From positions 1 through 64,000 of the forward strand of contig JAJZBG010000009.1 in NCBI GenBank assembly GCA_021799035.1: a stretch of DNA of 64,000 nucleotides. The letters are read 5' to 3'. Below are positions 2,303 through 33,369 of the stretch, piece after piece. The notes beneath the pieces were generated by a model. That model ran no database searches. It was not told where the DNA came from and saw nothing but the letters and a program-made list of their open reading frames with translations. How positions within the stretch are numbered: position 1 is the first letter of the stretch; every line of letters starts with the position of its first letter. The position numbers and the translations under genes are program-made. This stretch comes from Actinomycetes bacterium. GTDB taxonomy: Bacteria > Actinomycetota > Acidimicrobiia > Acidimicrobiales > Acidimicrobiaceae.

Positions 2303-4084
2303 GTGAAAATTGAAAAGCTGACTGTTCCTGTCGAAGAACGCCCAAAGATGGAATGGGGAAGCGACGCAATTGCTGAAGTGCTGAGCCAGCTTGACTTGCC
2401 GTTTATCAGCCTCACGCCGGGAGCAAGCTACCGAGGCGTCCACGACAGTCTCGTGAACTATCTTGGGAATTCCAATCCGAAGATGATCCTCTGTCTCCAC
2501 GAAGAGAATGCGGTTGCGGTTGCTCAGGGATACGCAAAGGTTACAGGCAAGCCTATGGCGGTGGCCCTTCATTCAAATGTCGGGCTGATGCACGCCACAA
2601 TGGCAATCTTCAACGCTTATTGCGACCGGATGCCGATGGTCATACTTGGTGCAACGGGTCCAATTGACGCATCGCAGAGGCGACCATGGATCGACTGGAT
2701 CCACACAGCAACCGACCAGGCAGCACTCATTCGCAACTACATCAAATGGGATGATCAACCTGGCTCAGCTTCAGCAGCGGTTGAGGCGCTGGCAAGAGCC
2801 AGCCAGGTCACCAGGTCAAATCCGTCCGCCCCAACCTACGTGTGCCTGGATGCTGGCATGCAGGAGCAAAGGCTCGACGCGCCGGTTAGCATGCCCAATC
2901 TAGACAGATTTCAGCCCCCCACTCCTCCAGCTCCGTCATCCCATACCGTAGACGAAACGTGGCGCCTGCTCAAAGAGGCAAAAAAGCCATTGATTCTCAT
3001 GGGAAGGGTATCTCGTACTAGGAAATCGTGGGATGACAGAATCCGACTTGTTGAGGCGCTGGGAGCATGCGTTCTAACTGATCTCAAGATCGGCGCAGTC
3101 TTTCCCACCAAACACCCCCTCCAGCCCGCATGGCCCGGAGCTCGGATAACGGCAGCAGGCAGGTCTTTGATTCGCGAAAGCGATCTGATCCTCAGCTTGG
3201 ATTGGGTGGACCTCGGCGGCACCCTCCAAACTGCAGATTCGGGAGATACTCAGACCGTCATCTCTTGCACCAACGATCAAGCACTGCATAACGGCTGGAG
3301 CAAAGACCACTACGTTCTTCCCAGAGTCGATCTGTCGATTTGCGCCGATCCAAACGTCCTCGTCGAGGCCCTGCTTTCAAAGGCAGCCGGAGAGGCTCCC
3401 ATAATGCGCACCGAATGGCCGCCAAGCTTCGAAAGAGAAGAGCCTGAACAGCCACAAGAGGATCCCGACCAACTAATGATGTCTGAACTGGCCGCCTCGA
3501 TGCAGAGCGCATTGGCGGGACGAAAGGTCACCTGGACCGGCCTGCCGCTGGGATGGTCGAGAGAAGAGCTCGATTTTAATGATCCGCTGGACTATCTCGG
3601 ACGAGATGGTGGCGGCGGCGTAGGTGCCGGACCGGGCATTGCAGTCGGCGCCGCATTGGCACTGGCCGGAACAGATCGCATACCAGTAGCGGTTATTGGC
3701 GATGGCGACTACTTGATGTGTGCTTCCGCCCTGTGGACTGCAGCACACCATAAGCTTCCTCTGTTGGTTGTGGTAGCCAATAACCGAGCCTACTATAACG
3801 ATGAGGTACATCAGCAGAGAGTCGCCATAACCAGAAGTAGGCCTGTCGAAAACCGCTGGGTTGGACAGCACCTTAGAGACCCTAATCCTGATCTTGCAAC
3901 AATTGCTAGAGGACATGGCTTGAAAGGGTTTGGTCCGATCCACAACACAAGCGAGCTGGATAAGGCTCTGATGGAAGCGCTATCGGAAGTTGACTCCGGA
4001 AATGCCGCCCTGATAGATGTCTGGGTTAGCCCAAGAGGATACCAGGGCGCACCTCCAGAGATGTCCAACCAAGGTAGGGGCTGA
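2303..4084 (+). CDS. thiamine-diphosphate-dependent enzyme, acetolactate synthase / benzoylformate decarboxylase family
   Basis: This 593-residue protein has the three-domain ThDP decarboxylase/carboligase architecture. The N-terminal pyrimidine-binding domain carries the activating Glu at about 67 in LHEENAVAVAQGYAK. The segment ALHSNVG that follows places His90 where benzoylformate decarboxylase has its active-site His. The C-terminal cofactor domain has the GDGD (466-469) to NN (493-494) diphosphate/Mg motif. Start is GTG at 2303 after AAAAGGAGAG. A non-oxidative 2-keto-acid decarboxylase or a carboligase would fit. The adjacent ABC transporter and dehydrogenase suggest catabolism of an imported acid, but the substrate is not readable. 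Length is slightly above the usual 530-570 residues. Confidence 0.8.
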   Translation: MKIEKLTVPVEERPKMEWGSDAIAEVLSQLDLPFISLTPGASYRGVHDSLVNYLGNSNPKMILCLHEENAVAVAQGYAKVTGKPMAVALHSNVGLMHATMAIFNAYCDRMPMVILGATGPIDASQRRPWIDWIHTATDQAALIRNYIKWDDQPGSASAAVEALARASQVTRSNPSAPTYVCLDAGMQEQRLDAPVSMPNLDRFQPPTPPAPSSHTVDETWRLLKEAKKPLILMGRVSRTRKSWDDRIRLVEALGACVLTDLKIGAVFPTKHPLQPAWPGARITAAGRSLIRESDLILSLDWVDLGGTLQTADSGDTQTVISCTNDQALHNGWSKDHYVLPRVDLSICADPNVLVEALLSKAAGEAPIMRTEWPPSFEREEPEQPQEDPDQLMMSELAASMQSALAGRKVTWTGLPLGWSREELDFNDPLDYLGRDGGGGVGAGPGIAVGAALALAGTDRIPVAVIGDGDYLMCASALWTAAHHKLPLLVVVANNRAYYNDEVHQQRVAITRSRPVENRWVGQHLRDPNPDLATIARGHGLKGFGPIHNTSELDKALMEALSEVDSGNAALIDVWVSPRGYQGAPPEMSNQGRG

Positions 4085-4192
4085 AACCCGAGCTCCACGA
4101 TCGTGCAATCGGAAAGCCGAAATCGACAGATGAGTGGCGGGATGGCGCTGATTTTTAAAGGTCCTTTCGACCAACCTCTGCGCCATGACCGT

Positions 4193-4201
4193 TGTTATAA
4201 T
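4193..4201 (+). promoter_or_regulatory. extended -10 promoter candidate for the dehydrogenase gene
   Basis: The sequence TGTTATAAT is a perfect TATAAT hexamer preceded by TGN, that is, an extended -10 element. It lies 66 bases upstream of the dehydrogenase start in the 183-base gap after the ThDP enzyme gene. No good -35 hexamer sits at the expected distance, which is common for extended -10 promoters. This suggests the dehydrogenase can be transcribed separately. Confidence 0.4.
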
Positions 4202-4267
4202 TGTCACACTTAGCACCGGCTCTTCTGGGGCTATCAAGAAGCCTCTAGTTCATGAAAGGACCCAGCA

Positions 4268-5077
4268 TTGACTCAAACCGATATCAGTGCGTCAGAGAAC
4301 ATCGAGATTGTTAGCAGTCGGCTCAAGGACAAGGTTGCAATCATTACTGGAGCCGGACACGGAATTGGCTTAGCCTATGCGACACGTCTGGCGTCGGAGG
4401 GGGCAAACGTAGTCATTGCCGAATTGGATGGTCCAGCTGCCGAGAAGGCAGAATTGGAGCTCAAGAGCAAGGGGCTTTCTGCCCTGGCCGTGGCAACGAA
4501 CGTTGTAGAGTTGGCAAGCCTGGAAAACATGGTCAAAAGGACTCTCGAAGAGTTCGGCCGAATAGATATTTTGGTGAATAATGCGGCAATCTTTTCCACT
4601 ATCCCGATGTCGCGCTCCCCGTTCGATGAAATCGAGATCCAAGAGTGGGATGCGATGATGGCAGTCAACGTCAAGGGTGCCTGGCTTGCGAGCCGTGCGG
4701 TATCTCACCAGATGAAGAAGCAGATGAGCGGAAAGATCATCAATATCAGCTCTGGAACGGCACTCAAGGGTTCTGCAAGCCGCATCCACTACGTGACAAG
4801 CAAAGCTGCGGTTCTCGGCTTCACGCGAACACTTGCGCGTGAACTTGGGCCATTCAATATCAACGTCAACTGCGTTGCTCCCGGAAATACGCTGAGTGAA
4901 GTGGACCCGGATGAATCGACCTTGGCCTTTAGAAATGCAGGCGCAAACGATAGAGCGCTTAAGAGAACTGAGAAACCTGGCGACCTAGTGGGTGCTGTGG
5001 CGTTCTTCGCTTCGCCAGACAGTGACTTCATCACCGGGCAGACACTCGTTGTAGACGGCGGATCATTCATGCATTGA
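4268..5077 (+). CDS. short-chain dehydrogenase/reductase (classical SDR)
   Basis: This 269-residue protein is a classical SDR. It has cofactor motif TGAGHGIG at 27-34, NNAA at 104-107, catalytic Ser161/162, Tyr175 and Lys179 (YVTSK), and a C-terminal TGQTLVVDGG. It would oxidise or reduce an alcohol/ketone with NAD(P)H, and the substrate cannot be read. About 20 extra residues precede the Rossmann fold. The start is TTG at 4268, with AAAGGA eight bases upstream. It follows the ThDP enzyme in the same direction with its own promoter candidate in between, so a joint pathway is plausible but not shown. Confidence 0.85.
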   Translation: MTQTDISASENIEIVSSRLKDKVAIITGAGHGIGLAYATRLASEGANVVIAELDGPAAEKAELELKSKGLSALAVATNVVELASLENMVKRTLEEFGRIDILVNNAAIFSTIPMSRSPFDEIEIQEWDAMMAVNVKGAWLASRAVSHQMKKQMSGKIINISSGTALKGSASRIHYVTSKAAVLGFTRTLARELGPFNINVNCVAPGNTLSEVDPDESTLAFRNAGANDRALKRTEKPGDLVGAVAFFASPDSDFITGQTLVVDGGSFMH

Positions 5078-5094
5078 CCCGTCCCAGTCATTCT

Positions 5095-5120
5095 CGATCA
5101 TCTGGAGTCAAAGATGATCG
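5095..5120 (+). terminator. hairpin downstream of the dehydrogenase gene
   Basis: A perfect 9-base inverted repeat (CGATCATCT / AGATGATCG) with an 8-base loop begins 18 bases after the SDR stop. There is no clear T-run after it, so it is a terminator-like stem rather than a textbook intrinsic terminator. Confidence 0.35.
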
Positions 5121-5543
5121 TTGGGCAACTTCCAGTATTTCCACTAGCCAAGTTCCTTTACCAGTTCGAGATACTCTCAAGCGGATGCTGCTCATATAGG
5201 CATACCGCTTTATCCCCTTCCTGATAGAAAGGGCCTGCGGCCTTAGAAGATTCAAACAAAATCGTTGACGCTCCTTACATCTCGTGACTAGCAGGGAGCG
5301 TCGCGAGCAATTAGCTGGTAACAGCGGACACCTGACAAGAGTCTCCAATCAAAGAGACTGAATAGTTCACCTTGGCCTTCACATGAGAGACGAGCGCCGC
5401 GTAGATGAGGCCTTGATTTCTCGATGTGAATGAAGTCTTTCGAACGCCAGACCTTGTCTTGGCTTCGCACGGCTATCGAACGCTTGATTCAGTTAGATAC
5501 GGAATCTAGTTGTGCCACCTCACGGGGATGACAGATTATACGG
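5121..5543. other. intergenic region between convergent genes, nothing recognised
   Basis: This gap separates the plus-strand dehydrogenase from the minus-strand sugar-type ABC ATPase. Short frames in it have poor composition and no convincing ribosome binding site. I saw no repeat, tRNA or convincing terminator apart from the hairpin listed just upstream. Confidence 0.5.
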
Positions 5544-7151
5544 CTAGACGACCGACCAGCTGACGCGCTCCTCTTCCGCCTCCTCTTCCAAGCTCGCCTG
5601 GAAGGCTGCGCGCATCACATCCTCACCGCTAACCTCGCCGCCTCTCAGCTCCATGCGGATCTTCCCGTGCCCGCACACAAGAATCCGGTCGCAGATATGC
5701 GCTAGATCTTCATATTCGATCGAAGAGACCAGTATCGCAGCGCCAGATGCCGCCCTTTCAGCAAGGAGTTTGAAGATCTCCTTCTTGGCCACCACGTCAA
5801 TTCCTTCCGTGGGTTCGTGAAGGATGATCACATCGGGGTTGAGCGCCATCCACTTACCGACAACCACCTTTTGCTGGTTGCCGCCGCTCAGAGCTCCCAC
5901 TCTTGTCTCTAAGCTCATAGGAGTCACGCCAAAGGCCTGTGCAACCCTTTGTGCGTCGTCACTCTCCTGCCTAGAGCGCAAGAGCCCACTTTTGATGAAC
6001 TGGCGGAGCTTTGGCTGGGTGATGTTCTCCCGGATGCCCAGATCAGTCACTATGGAGTTGTTGCGCCGATCTCCGGGAACCAGAACCATTCCACGGGATA
6101 TGTGATCCGATATCTTCGAGTGAGCCAGGTCTATCTCATTGCCTCTTTGGACAAGCTTCCCGCTGGCCCCACGCTCAGAGTCGAAAAGAAGGTAGGGGAC
6201 CTCTTCAAAGCCAGCACCCTGAAGTCCTGTGATCCCGACAATCTCTCCTGGATAAAGCGTGAAGCTCATCTCGTCCACCTTTGGGCCAGAGAGCCCCTCC
6301 ACTTCCAAAGCTGCGTTGGGATCTCTTTCTGTACTTGCGCGTGCAGGATAGAAAGAGCCGATTCGAGAACCCACCAAGGCCTCTACTATCTCCTCATTGG
6401 TGACTCCTGAGGAGTTGAAGGTAGCCACAATCTTCCCGTTCCTGAGCACGCTGATCCTGTCAGCAATCTCTCTCAGCTCTTGAGGCCTGTGCCCTATGAA
6501 AAGCACCCCCAGGCCTTCTCGGCTGGCAAGCTCTCTGAGCCACTTGCCAAGACCCGCTGCTTCTTCTCTCCCCATGGCAGCTGTTGGCTCGTCTAAAACA
6601 ACAGTGGTCAGCTCCTCGCCCGGACGGCGGTAAAGCGCCCTTATGATCGCGAGCTTTGCCTTTGCGGCAACCGAAAGCGTCTTCGCGTCGGCATCGAGGT
6701 CGACTGGGACGTTATGGCGCAAGAGCTCTTCGCGAATCGAGTTCTTCTCTTCTCTCCATTTGATCTTCCATGCCGGTCCGCAAGAGTACCCCCGCCCAAG
6801 GCACATGTTGTCTAGAACAGACATGCCTGCTATGAAGCCGTTATCCTGATGAACGAACCTGACCCCCGCTTTTCTGATCTCATGGGGGTTCACCGGCAAC
6901 GCAAGCGAGTTGCCGGAAACCCGAATCTCTGTACCCTCGTCAGGGTGATGATATCCTGCCAAGATCTTCACGATTGTGGACTTGCCCGATCCATTTGCCC
7001 CGGCCAAGGCGTGTATCTCACCGGGCAGGACTGTAAAGTCCACGCCGGAGAGGACGGGGCGGCCAGCTATGAAGGATTTAGAGGCATTTCGTATCTCCAG
7101 TCTCGGGGATCTTTCATGCTCTCCTGAGTTGGACTTGGTGAGATCGCTCAA
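5544..7151 (-). CDS. sugar-type ABC importer ATPase with two nucleotide-binding domains (RbsA/MglA type)
   Basis: This protein fuses two ABC ATPase domains, as in ribose/galactose importers. The first domain has an intact Walker A (GANGSGKS) and an active-looking DEPTAAMG Walker B, with a degenerate signature (LSVAAK). The second has a degenerate Walker A (GLQGAGFEE) but an intact LSGGNQQK signature and HEPTEGID Walker B; this asymmetry is normal for the family. I chose TTG at 7151 because AAAGGGG sits seven bases upstream, giving 535 residues. The longer frame to 7247 would overlap the lipoprotein gene by 32 bases and lacks a good site. It is the last gene of the permease-lipoprotein-ATPase run. 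Confidence 0.88.
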   Translation of the reverse strand: MSDLTKSNSGEHERSPRLEIRNASKSFIAGRPVLSGVDFTVLPGEIHALAGANGSGKSTIVKILAGYHHPDEGTEIRVSGNSLALPVNPHEIRKAGVRFVHQDNGFIAGMSVLDNMCLGRGYSCGPAWKIKWREEKNSIREELLRHNVPVDLDADAKTLSVAAKAKLAIIRALYRRPGEELTTVVLDEPTAAMGREEAAGLGKWLRELASREGLGVLFIGHRPQELREIADRISVLRNGKIVATFNSSGVTNEEIVEALVGSRIGSFYPARASTERDPNAALEVEGLSGPKVDEMSFTLYPGEIVGITGLQGAGFEEVPYLLFDSERGASGKLVQRGNEIDLAHSKISDHISRGMVLVPGDRRNNSIVTDLGIRENITQPKLRQFIKSGLLRSRQESDDAQRVAQAFGVTPMSLETRVGALSGGNQQKVVVGKWMALNPDVIILHEPTEGIDVVAKKEIFKLLAERAASGAAILVSSIEYEDLAHICDRILVCGHGKIRMELRGGEVSGEDVMRAAFQASLEEEAEEERVSWSVV

Positions 7152-27845: not shown

Positions 27846-28661
27846 TCAATAGACAAGCTGCGCAAATCTGGCCCGACCTGCCAAGTCTCTATGTATGACA
27901 GCCCGAGAAAAACCATGCTGTCCAGCCAGCTCCCTCACGCGATCTCCGTGGGTCTCATCTATTTCCAGGAGCAGCTCTGCTCCTCTTCTTGTGAGCCAGC
28001 TCGGTGACTCTTTAATGAGCCTTCTTATAACCGAAAGGCCATCTTCACCACCAAAGAGAGCCTCGTGCGGCTCGTAATCAGTGACCCTGGGTTCAAGCTG
28101 TGTTGAAGAAGGGAGGTAGGGGGGATTGGAAACTATCATGTCAAACGCCCCAAGTCCCCCAACAGCTTCAAACAGATCTGACTGCATCATCACCAACTCA
28201 CTTAGAAGTTTCGACTTATGCAGAGCCATATTCTCTCTGGCGAGTTCAAGTGCAGCAGGAGAAAGCTCCGTGGCCACTATGTGAAGTCCGTGCACCTCGC
28301 TTGCCAGGGCTAGAGCAATGGCCCCAGTCCCTGTTCCAATCTCTAGAACCCTCTTCATCCAGTTGTTGATTGCCAACTCAGCTTCTACCAGATCCACCAG
28401 CTGTTCTGTCTCGGGTCTCGGAATTAGTGCCCGCGCGTCGCAGCCAAGCTCAAGCGAACGAAAACTCCAGTGACCAAATATGTACTGGATGGGCTCGCCC
28501 GATAGGTAACGCTGGGCCATCTTCAAGGCAAGGCTTTCGGCATCAGCCCCTGACGACTTTGAAAAAGCCTCGTCGAGAATCCACTTTGCCAGTTGTCGCC
28601 TTCCCAGTTGCCCGGAAATCCTCTCGAGAAGCTCCCATTCGGCAATCGGGCCGGCGCACAT
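27846..28661 (-). CDS. prmC: release factor glutamine methyltransferase
   Basis: This 271-residue SAM-dependent enzyme methylates the Gln of the GGQ motif of peptide release factors. EIGTGTG (107-113) binds SAM and NPPY (179-182) is the catalytic glutamine-binding motif. The N-terminal helical domain that contacts the release factor is present. Its ATG overlaps the stop of prfA by one base, so enzyme and substrate are co-translated, the usual arrangement. It is the last gene of the argS-to-prmC run. Confidence 0.93.
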   Translation of the reverse strand: MCAGPIAEWELLERISGQLGRRQLAKWILDEAFSKSSGADAESLALKMAQRYLSGEPIQYIFGHWSFRSLELGCDARALIPRPETEQLVDLVEAELAINNWMKRVLEIGTGTGAIALALASEVHGLHIVATELSPAALELARENMALHKSKLLSELVMMQSDLFEAVGGLGAFDMIVSNPPYLPSSTQLEPRVTDYEPHEALFGGEDGLSVIRRLIKESPSWLTRRGAELLLEIDETHGDRVRELAGQHGFSRAVIHRDLAGRARFAQLVY

Positions 28662-29728
28662 CAGACCTCTTGACCTTCGAGCTGTCTCGTCCTCTCGTCG
28701 AGGAGGAGGGCCTCTGTCAGTTCCTCCAGTTCACCCATCAGAATTCGATCCAGGCGGTACAATGTGAGCCCGATTCTGTGATCCGTGACGCGATTCTCCT
28801 TGAAGTTGTATGTCCTTATCTTTTCCGACCGGCCTCCACCGCCAATCTGCGACTTTCTTGCCTGAGAAAGCTCGGCAGACTGTTTCTCCTGCTCCATCTT
28901 CAACAACCGAGCACGCAGCACTTGAAGCGCCTTCGCCCGGTTCTGAATCTGGCTCTTCTCGTCCTGCATTGCCACTACCAATCCGGTCGGAATGTGGGTT
29001 ACTCTCACCGCAGAGTCAGTGGTATTGACCGACTGCCCACCTGGCCCAGTAGAGCGGTAGACATCTATCTTCAAATCGTTTGGATCGATTTGGACATCAA
29101 CCTCTTCTGCTTCCGGAAGTATTGTGACAGTTGCCGACGATGTGTGGATCCTGCCCTGAGATTCGGTTACAGGCACGCGCTGAACTCGATGAGGCCCACC
29201 CTCGTGCTTCAACTTTCTCCAAGCTTCCTCTCCCTTCACTATGAAGGTGACGTCGCTGTAACCTCCACGTTCGGATATGTCTGCTCCAAGGAGTTCCCAC
29301 TTCCAGCCTTGACGATCGGCGTAACGAACGTACATGTCGAAAAGATCCTTGGCAAAGAGATTGGCCTCCTCGCCACCCTCGGCGCCACGAATCTCTACAA
29401 TGACGTTCCTGCCATCGTTTTCGTCCTTGGGCAAGAGGGAGATCTCAAGACTCCTTCTCAGCTCCCCCAGCTTCTCTTCGGCCTCGCCCAACTCGTCCCA
29501 GAGAAGATCACGATCTTCACCGGTTGATTCAGCAATCATCTCTTTGAGAGTGTCTACATCACTCTGCCCTGTTTGAAAAGCCCTAAACGCTGTCACGATT
29601 GCCTCAAGCTCCTTGTGCTTGCGACTCACGTCACGCATTCGGCGCTGATCGGAGTAGATCGATGGATCAGCCAGCTCTTTGGACACCGATTCATATTCTT
29701 TTGTAATTTCAGAGAGTCGCTCAAACAT
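28661..29728 (-). CDS. prfA: peptide chain release factor 1
   Basis: This 355-residue factor terminates translation at UAA and UAG. The stop-codon recognition tripeptide PVT is at 186-188 and the catalytic GGQ at 230-232 (TGPGGQSVNTT). Length and the coiled N-terminal domain are typical. It lies between the unknown 403-residue gene and prmC on the minus strand, with a 17-base gap upstream. Confidence 0.95.
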   Translation of the reverse strand: MFERLSEITKEYESVSKELADPSIYSDQRRMRDVSRKHKELEAIVTAFRAFQTGQSDVDTLKEMIAESTGEDRDLLWDELGEAEEKLGELRRSLEISLLPKDENDGRNVIVEIRGAEGGEEANLFAKDLFDMYVRYADRQGWKWELLGADISERGGYSDVTFIVKGEEAWRKLKHEGGPHRVQRVPVTESQGRIHTSSATVTILPEAEEVDVQIDPNDLKIDVYRSTGPGGQSVNTTDSAVRVTHIPTGLVVAMQDEKSQIQNRAKALQVLRARLLKMEQEKQSAELSQARKSQIGGGGRSEKIRTYNFKENRVTDHRIGLTLYRLDRILMGELEELTEALLLDERTRQLEGQEV

Positions 29729-29745: not shown

Positions 29746-30957
29746 CTAGTCACGGATAATCATCTTCCACGTCGGCAAAAGCGTGGCACTTCTGATGCCA
29801 AAGCTTGCCAAATCTACCAAACGCTCGATTGGTACAATTTTATTTCGCTCTTCCAAAACAAGGATTGATCCGCCTGTCTGCCTTCCTGCCGCCCTTGCAG
29901 CATGCAGTACTTCATACAGCTTTGCAACCACTCCCAGATCTAAAGATGCGGCGATTCCTACTACCGATTCAGCACCATCAGCATCGACACCAATGCCAAA
30001 GGAGATGCCGTCCTCCTCGAAACTGGGATCAAATCCCTGGTACATCGATGAGTCCTCATCATTGGGCTCCGAGCTCGCCTTGAGCGACCATAGTCCGCTG
30101 TTAGGCCAGCTGCCTGTCCTTACCAGCTCAACAGGCACAAGACCCTCCACTCCGATCAAGGCTGGGTTGTCTTGTATGGCCAATCTCATCCACCTCGCCA
30201 TCGAAAGCTTTGCCAACGGATGAAATTGGGATGATCCCAAGCGATAACGATTTACAACCTCTATCGTCTCGTGAAGTTGATCAGCTTGGCTCTTGGACTC
30301 TGAAAGCCAGCTCTTTGCCATTCGATCGTTTCTTCCCACTCCAATCTCCAGCCCAAGGCGGCCGTCAACAATCTTTGAACGTGCCACTTCCAGGCCGAGA
30401 TGAGTCGCTACCATCCTTTCTTTGATGAACAGCGCCTCACACCCGCATCCGAGGACCAGTTCGACTAGCTCTTCAGCTCCATCCTGATTCAAAAATTCCG
30501 ATCTGGCAGACTCCTCCTGAACCACGAGCTGTAGGTTTGAGCCTGGCGTCACTTGAGAAAGTTGGTTATCCGCTGGAGAAAACACCTCAACGGGAATGCC
30601 AAAGCCCTGTCGCTGAAGGCTCAGAACACGAAAAACTTCTGTTGCCGCCGACGAGGTTGTGCCCGGAAGCGCAACATGTGGAAGGTACAACACCAGAGAC
30701 TCAGCCTGTCTCTTCAGCGCAAAAGCAAGATGGGCACCTATGTCTGCTGTCGGCAAAGTGCTGACGAAGACATGGGCTATCCCCTTGGCCACGGACCCAA
30801 CGAATGTCGGAAACTCCGAAATCTCGAGAGTCGAACCCTGGATGTCTGAATCAAATTTTGAAATACATGAACGAAGGGCCCCCGACAACAGGGAGCCCTT
30901 CTCGGATCCATTCATTTGCGGCACTACAGCTTCCAAACTCGAAAAGGCTCTTGGCAA
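29746..30957 (-). CDS. unknown 403-residue protein within the rpmE-prfA operon
   Basis: I do not recognise a family. The protein is soluble-looking with no signal peptide or membrane helix. An N-terminal half contains alternating strands and helices (AHVFVSTLPTADIGAHLAFAL, AESLVLYLPHVALPG). A central block (GCGCEALFIKERMVATHLGLEVAR, then GRLGLEIGVGRNDRMA) is followed by a helical HPLAKLSMARWMRLAI segment. The C-terminal third (FGIGVDADGAESVVGIAASL) has a repeated-strand look. It starts 11 bases after rpmE ends and stops 17 bases before prfA starts, so it is co-transcribed with translation genes. A role in termination, ribosome rescue or tRNA handling is only an inference from position. Confidence 0.75.
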   Translation of the reverse strand: MPRAFSSLEAVVPQMNGSEKGSLLSGALRSCISKFDSDIQGSTLEISEFPTFVGSVAKGIAHVFVSTLPTADIGAHLAFALKRQAESLVLYLPHVALPGTTSSAATEVFRVLSLQRQGFGIPVEVFSPADNQLSQVTPGSNLQLVVQEESARSEFLNQDGAEELVELVLGCGCEALFIKERMVATHLGLEVARSKIVDGRLGLEIGVGRNDRMAKSWLSESKSQADQLHETIEVVNRYRLGSSQFHPLAKLSMARWMRLAIQDNPALIGVEGLVPVELVRTGSWPNSGLWSLKASSEPNDEDSSMYQGFDPSFEEDGISFGIGVDADGAESVVGIAASLDLGVVAKLYEVLHAARAAGRQTGGSILVLEERNKIVPIERLVDLASFGIRSATLLPTWKMIIRD

Positions 30958-31254: not shown

Positions 31255-33006
31255 TTAGTTGTTCGGAACCTGCGATTTTGCAATCTCCTGCAAAAACTCA
31301 GCATTGGACTTGGTGGATCGAATTTTGTCAATTAGAAGCTCCAAACCCGGCGCCGAGTTGCCATCGCTGCTCAGAGCGTTCAGAACCCTTCTCAACTTCC
31401 ACACCTGCGCCAGCTGATCCTTGTCGAACAGCAGCTCTTCATGCCTTGTCGAGGAAGAATTGACATCGATCGCGGGATACAACCGGCGCTCAGCAAGACG
31501 GCGATCAAGCCGAAGCTCCATGTTTCCTGTTCCCTTGAATTCCTCGAAGATCACCTCATCCATCCGAGATCCAGTTTCAACGAGCGCAGTTGCAAGAATT
31601 GTGAGCGAGCCCCCCTCTTCAACATTTCTTGCCGCTCCAAAGAATTTCTTCGGGGGGTAAAGGGCACCTGAATCCACACCACCGGACATGATCCTTCCTG
31701 AGGCAGGCTGCGCCAGGTTATAAGCCCTTGCGAGCCGCGTGATGCCGTCCAGAATGATTACGACATCCCTGCCCAGCTCGACCAGACGCTTGGCCCGCTC
31801 AAGCGCGAGCTCAGATACTGCGGTGTGCTCTTCAGCAGGCCTGTCAAACGTTGAAGCCACCACCTCGCCCTTCACAGAGCGCCTCATGTCAGTGACCTCT
31901 TCAGGACGTTCGTCGACAAGAAGCACCATTAGGAAGACTTCTGGGTTGTTCGTCTCAATGCAGTGAGCGATGTGCTTCATGACGGTCGTCTTTCCTGCCT
32001 TTGGAGGAGAAACGATGAGACCTCTCTGGCCCTTTCCAATGGGAGATACCAGGTCGACTATTCGAGCTGTCACATTCGCAGGGTCCCTCGGCGTCTCCAA
32101 TACAAGCTTTAGGTCAGGAAAGAGCGGCGTCAGCTCTTCAAACCTTGGTCGCACTTTCGCCGTCTCTGGATCGTTGCCGTTGACCTGGTCGACACGAACC
32201 AGCGCTGGGTACTTCTCGTTTGCATTTGCAGCGCGTGCCCCTCCCTGCACATGATCACCCTTGCGCAACCCGTATTTTCGAACAACGGATATTGCAACGT
32301 AGACATCTTTGGGACTTGGCAAGTAACTACCCGACCTAAGAAAGCCGAACCCCTCCTCCCTCAGATCAAGGACTCCATCAACATCTGCCAGCTCAACTGG
32401 GGCAGCCGGCTCAGCGGACGTCTCCCGCTCTCTGTCTCCGCGGTCCCTCCCTCTTCGCCGTCGGCTCCTCCTTGAGGTCCCTTCGGCGGTCTCGACAGCG
32501 ACCTTGCGAGCCTCAACTGGCTCTTCAGCTGGAGCCTTTTCCACTTCTTCTATCGTCTTGACCGCGAACTCCTGGTCTATCAGCTCATCTGTCGATAGAG
32601 CCTCGGCGTGACCATTTGACCCATTGCGAGTAACAGCGGCGCGTCGCTTCGACATTGTCGAACTTGTTACGACGATTGGGGGTGGCACAGCTATCTCCGG
32701 TGAAGCCAGCGTTGCCGGCTCCTCCCCCTTGGAAGCCTCTGCCCTTACCTCCCCGGCACTCGAAGCCACAGCCTCTTTCTCTGGCTGCGCAGCCTTCCTG
32801 CTCCTTGTGCTACGCGCCTTTGTCTCCACTGCCGCTGATTGTACAACCGGGGTCGTCACCCCAGCAGCTAGAAGGATTAGATCAATCAGATCAGACTTCT
32901 TTGTCCTCGATGTTGTCTTGATCTGCATTGCTCCAGCTATCTGAGATAGCTCGTTTCTATCTTTCTTCTCAAGAACCGAGCGCTCTAGCTGAGACTCAGT
33001 GCTCAT
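31255..33006 (-). CDS. rho: transcription termination factor Rho
   Basis: This 583-residue hexameric RNA helicase ends untranslated transcripts. An N-terminal SAP-like domain (about 1-50) is followed by a 150-residue low-complexity, charged insert ending in an Arg-rich patch, typical of actinobacterial Rho. The cold-shock RNA-binding domain has GFGFLRSG. The ATPase Walker A PPKAGKT is at 334-340, followed by [10 protein letters not shown] and the [22 protein letters not shown]-loop region. ATG 33006 has GGAAGAGG upstream; a TTG five codons earlier is less likely. Confidence 0.96.
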
Positions 33007-33369
33007 CTGCACCTCTTCCAATTCATAGTCAATTCAAATTTCTTCAACGTTGCTCCATGTAGCCCGCCACGGCTAAACCACCTTATGAATTCGCGTGATT
33101 TCGTGGTTTCTCAGATACTTTGCCTCTAATGAGCCTTTTCCCCGGGATGGAGCTGATAAGTCATTGGTAGCCAGCAATTCTGCTACTCGTGCGTTACCTA
33201 GTTTTTAGCACAACGAGGCCGCCTACTCAAATCCAACTGGCATCGTTGAACAGATTGCGCTGGAAAAGAGGTTTCGCCGGAATACCCGCGACATAGGTCT
33301 GAGCCCTCCAGGCCCAAGTGCTTTATCTATACTTTAGCAGCCTGCCGACAATATTCGACAGTTGGCGAT
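33007..33369 (-). promoter_or_regulatory. 363-base region upstream of rho with promoter candidate
   Basis: This stretch holds no gene. On the minus strand a TTGTCG element (33346-33351) and a TAGATA element (33324-33329) are 16 bases apart, just after the thrC stop. They would produce a leader of over 300 bases in front of rho. Rho is autoregulated through its leader in several bacteria, so a long leader is plausible. In mycobacteria thrB occupies this position. Confidence 0.35.

Follow-up and report, generated by a model that had tools for sequence, protein, structure and literature searches.

A conserved protein of Acidimicrobiia without a recognised family, encoded between the genes for ribosomal protein L31 and release factor 1

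Few bacterial operons are better understood than those of core translation, and a gene inside one of them whose product belongs to no recognised family raises the question of whether it shares the function of its neighbours. Such a gene, here called X, lies in the window, by which we mean the whole 64,000-nucleotide stretch of an Actinomycetes bacterium genome (Acidimicrobiia) that was analysed. From its position alone, a role for X in translation termination, ribosome rescue or RNA handling, as the first-pass annotation had suggested, is plausible. We asked how far the locus, its descent and the predicted structure of its product bear on that suggestion.

A conserved gene in the rpmE-prfA slot

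The genes rho, rpmE, X, prfA and prmC follow one another in that order and in one shared direction (Table 1), and the next long frame past prmC lies on the opposite strand. In the open-reading-frame listing, the X frame runs on the minus strand from 30957 to 29746 and comprises 403 codons from a TTG at 30957; counted from that start, the gaps are 11 bases between rpmE and X and 17 bases between X and prfA, exactly as first annotated, and the accompanying description of a soluble, unfamiliar protein inside a termination operon is likewise supported. The aligned N-terminal extension (residues before 12) is, however, broken by a stop codon in two or more other members of the genus, and the earliest start codon common to the genus corresponds to the GTG at 30924. 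On these grounds the alignments indicate that the start at TTG 30957 was probably placed too far upstream and that GTG 30924, which yields a protein of 392 amino acids and a gap to rpmE of 44 bases, fits better. The GC content of X (0.52) resembles that of its neighbours (0.53-0.55) and so gives no mark of recent foreign insertion. Its product is acidic (pI 5.06, compared with 5.11 for the prfA product) and has no basic module. An Rfam scan of the window returned one tRNA only and no RNA element in the operon, and the stretch from rpmE to prfA showed no sigma-70-like promoter.

Table 1. Coordinates of X, its predicted modules and the neighbouring genes in the window
Feature	Coordinates	Strand	Basis or remark
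rho, transcription termination factor	31255..33021	-	start uncertain
rpmE, ribosomal protein L31	30969..31184	-	upstream of X
Possible but unlikely N-terminal extension of X (from TTG 30957)	30925..30957	-	stops interrupt it in relatives
Gene X, 392 aa	29746..30924	-	stop codon included; genus start comparison; AlphaFold2 model, mean pLDDT 85, pTM 0.84
Putative N module, residues 1-125	30550..30924	-	DSSP of model; N/C profile comparison against shuffles; very probably homologous to C module
Putative middle module, residues 137-258	30151..30516	-	alignments; conservation over 83 sequences
Putative C module, residues 259-392	29749..30150	-	model, conservation and N/C profile comparison; D329 97% conserved
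Genus-only insert, about residues 268-302	30019..30123	-	alignment; mostly predicted disordered, pLDDT <50 at 274-298
prfA, release factor 1	28661..29728	-	17 bases downstream of X; also beside X in relatives
prmC, release factor methyltransferase	27846..28661	-	final gene of run

All eight of the other genus members sampled carry X, seven encoding it at 54-63% identity and the eighth holding only the beginning of the gene, at a contig edge. A first search matched X in 40 of 60 related genomes (the window genome counted in), and at the 30 loci of that search the gene lay no more than 1.5 kb from rpmE, prfA or both. Inspection of the prfA locus in ten same-family genomes without a match revealed an open frame in the slot in all ten: eight match the X family profile (E 4e-15 to 6e-5), a ninth matches it weakly (E 0.006-0.02), and the tenth, from a complete genome of 2.2 Mb, carries the motif but is not significant alone. 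Across the class, 46 of 247 genomes match X, 44 of them in the order of the window; judged from these searches, X is nearly confined to a single order of Acidimicrobiia. Survey of the position across the class, which the first-pass annotation had proposed, thus finds X conserved between rpmE and prfA and rules out its presence in one genome only. Among 296 genomes of the phylum, just two weak matches fell outside the class (G521 and G530; E about 1e-4), and these, having unrelated surroundings, were taken as chance. In several families of the order rpmE directly adjoins prfA without X, and no match to X was found elsewhere in those genomes, indicating that X has been lost more than once.

The gene evolves under purifying selection, constrained yet fast-changing: dN/dS is 0.16 and 0.14 in two close pairs, as against about 0.02-0.03 for prfA, and the X protein sequence changes about 4-7 times faster than that of prfA. 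Over 72 loci, pairwise distances for X track those for prfA (r = 0.89; permutation maximum 0.07), which indicates that the two genes have been inherited together; X is old and single-copy. Its homologues within the genus, its dN/dS of 0.14-0.16 and its spread across the order together confirm that X is a real gene and not a chance frame. Some records that carry X (L032-L034, L061, L063, L067, L095, L096 and L097) are titled Bifidobacterium breve, Nitrosomonadales or Acidobacteria; the X protein in them is of the Acidimicrobiia type, and the assemblies look misnamed or contaminated.

Among 79 named loci, 74 place X directly against rpmE, prfA or both: 55 have both as neighbours, 9 have rpmE alone and 10 have prfA alone. 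Inserts or contig ends account for the other five. Spacing between X and prfA is frequently -4 or +2 bases at these loci, a sequence arrangement that suggests translational coupling. At some loci rpmE is absent or far off and X still adjoins prfA, while at others an insert splits X from prfA. No rpmE was detected beside X at L016, L074, L085, L108 and L185, and at L016 and L085 X directly follows rho.

In other orders of the class the same slot is filled by a gene that, by eye from its sequence, we take to be DUF1385 (PF07136), which, unlike X, has the look of a membrane-type protein. One genome of another order (L184, about 2433-6248) has the arrangement rho-rpmE-DUF1385-X-prfA-prmC, so X and DUF1385 are not alternative forms of a single gene; no DUF1385 turned up in the window genome or in its family. 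The simplest history that these arrangements suggest has X inserted between DUF1385 and prfA, followed by loss of DUF1385. At L181 (2465-4177), three genes lie between X and prfA, presumably a Fur-like regulator, a rubrerythrin-like protein and a DUF3501-like protein, as recognised by eye. A large cassette of about 4 kb separates rpmE from X at L048, L072 and L104, and at L104 it comprises two long genes that resemble, by eye only, a DUF1800/DUF1501 pair. Because the slot accepts genes of other kinds, the argument from the position of X is weakened.

Modules of X and their likeness to nuclease folds

Neither single X proteins nor their alignments gave anything above chance against Pfam-A, NCBIfam, PHROGs, PADLOC or PDB sequences, in keeping with the first-pass annotation, which had recognised no family; X represents a new family of proteins in Acidimicrobiia. 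Isolated weak matches, among them NAD synthase and the argininosuccinate lyase C-terminal domain, each in few members, were discarded, and a defence role was rejected, PADLOC giving no match.

AlphaFold2 modelled the window protein with a pLDDT of 85 and a pTM of 0.84, and a family member of 333 residues with values of 96 and 0.93. The succession of helices and strands in the models points to three modules, of which the N and C modules have in common a beta-alpha-beta-alpha-beta pattern. Comparison of the N and C profiles gave a score of 20.8, as against 8.0 +/- 1.45 (maximum 12.6) for 120 column-shuffled profiles, from which the two modules are very probably the product of an internal duplication; a previous comparison built on a narrower alignment had come out negative.

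The middle module contains the conserved residues G177-L-E, G195, D200, R228, H235, R244, W245 and R247. Across 83 X sequences Gly177, Gly195 and Arg228 are invariant, position 200 carries Asp (90%) or otherwise Glu, and Arg244 (88%), Arg247 (84%), His235 (78%) and Glu179 (74%) are conserved to lesser degrees; Asp329 (97% Asp) is the sole conserved residue of this set outside the middle module. Several of these residues are missing from diverged members at the same locus, which argues against a strict catalytic site, though not against a binding site.

No Foldseek match of the X models to the PDB reaches E 0.001. The top matches are the nuclease NucS/EndoMS (5gkj, probability 0.99) and AF2093 (2ph7, probability 0.99), followed by NucS (2vld), SPO1766, EcoO109I, Bax1, Can2 and BsmI, and TM-scores stay low, none of the PDB matches listed exceeding 0.36 of the target; a viral structure library gave weak matches to VRR-NUC and RPB5-type proteins. 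We take the high-probability matches to share the PD-(D/E)XK fold, with less certainty for AF2093. The modelled order of secondary-structure elements in the N and C modules fits this fold, and on the models the resemblance of X to it is marginal. AF2093 of Archaeoglobus fulgidus, the top structural match of the window model (E 1.3e-3), has 219 residues compared with 392 in X, at a TM-score of 0.30 of the target and 10% identity; a literature search found no paper on its function.

Inspection of the modules for the hallmarks of this fold revealed no conservation of the catalytic Asp...(Glu/Asp)-x-Lys motif at the expected strands in any of them, the strand register being read from the model, and the invariant X residues sit away from those strands. 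Profiles of the X modules matched those of NucS and YraN with a probability below 1% (P 0.15-0.7), whereas the positive control, NucS against YraN, gave 92% (P 6e-7); a sequence-profile link between X and NucS or YraN is accordingly rejected. No X member matched PF01939 (NucS/EndoMS) over the cut-off in Pfam-A scans of 29 and 51 members. Thus, although NucS/EndoMS (5gkj and 2vld) is among its best structural matches, X differs from it in lacking both the catalytic Asp...Glu-x-Lys and a profile link, and in having an extra middle module. NucS occurs as a separate gene in some X-bearing genomes; it was found neither in the window genome (G000) nor in the sampled members of its family, and is present in other families of the order.

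Readings of the role of X

One reading of these observations is that the outer modules of X would be copies of one alpha/beta domain like that of PD-(D/E)XK nucleases, without the catalytic motif, packed around the conserved middle module, and that X itself, derived from a nuclease but non-catalytic, would be an accessory protein produced alongside RF1. By our inference it would bind RNA, the ribosome or RF1 itself, and would tune translation termination or termination quality control. We favour this account, tentatively, on the combined strength of the conserved linkage, the -4/+2 gaps, the correlation of r = 0.89, the dN/dS values, the fold matches, the duplication and the precedent of RAP domains, which have a predicted restriction-endonuclease-like fold and roles in RNA metabolism (PMC8190603). 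RAP domain proteins, expanded in eukaryotes unlike X, offer a case of a nuclease-like fold in RNA biology, and their likeness to X is by analogy only. Against the account stand the absence of any Foldseek match at E 0.001, the low TM-scores, the negative NucS/YraN profile comparisons, the acidic character of X with no basic module, and the presence in the same slot of genes unrelated to translation; moreover, the loss of X in several families of the order means that termination works without it. Taken whole, we give this reading a probability of roughly one in three. Its more specific form, in which X is a lineage-specific termination cofactor that arose from a duplicated dead nuclease domain and works with RF1 or the terminating ribosome, we hold to be doubtful.

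About equally likely is that X is a passenger whose cellular role lies outside translation, for instance in DNA metabolism, and that it was inserted once and has since been kept by vertical inheritance. The permissiveness of the slot favours such a history, given DUF1385 in other orders and its coexistence with X in one genome, the Fur, rubrerythrin and DUF3501 genes between X and prfA in another, and the two-gene cassette between rpmE and X in several; so do the multiple losses of X and the fact that its closest folds are those of nucleases acting on DNA. A mere passenger is harder to reconcile with the loci at which X still adjoins prfA where rpmE is absent or far off, and with the finding of no X elsewhere in the genomes searched.

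Less likely than either is an enzymatic X whose middle module holds a non-standard active site, with residues such as E179, D200, R228, H235 and R244, and whose substrate would be RNA, tRNA or a nucleotide. That module is indeed where the conserved acidic, His and Arg residues are concentrated, with G177, G195 and R228 invariant and D200 replaced only by Glu, but E179 is Pro in 21% of sequences and H235 is Tyr in 10%, the Glu common in the family at column 174 is Thr in the window protein, the diverged members at the same locus do without several of the residues, and X matches no enzyme family. Finally, X could be a remote bacterial relative of eRF1 and Vms1, a kinship that the first-pass annotation had proposed checking, or some other release or rescue factor; position beside prfA and nothing else recommends this reading, and it is highly improbable, since Pfam-A scans of 29 and 51 X members found no eRF1, baeRF or Vms1-like family, eRF1, Pelota and Vms1 structures are absent among the matches listed for the X models, and the window protein has no GGQ motif of the kind found in class I release factors and GGQ rescue hydrolases.

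Whether X is an accessory protein of RF1 or a passenger beside it, a conserved protein without a family has been tied to release factor 1 through the history of an order and is apparently co-translated with it in many members, which makes X a stringent case for testing guilt by association. Either Acidimicrobiia possess an extra component of termination, or a highly conserved gene neighbourhood persists without shared function. If the fold assignment is true, X would join the nuclease-like folds reused as scaffolds, as a case that is duplicated and apparently non-catalytic; and if X does work as a termination cofactor, it would belong to a class of such factors for which model bacteria have shown no example.
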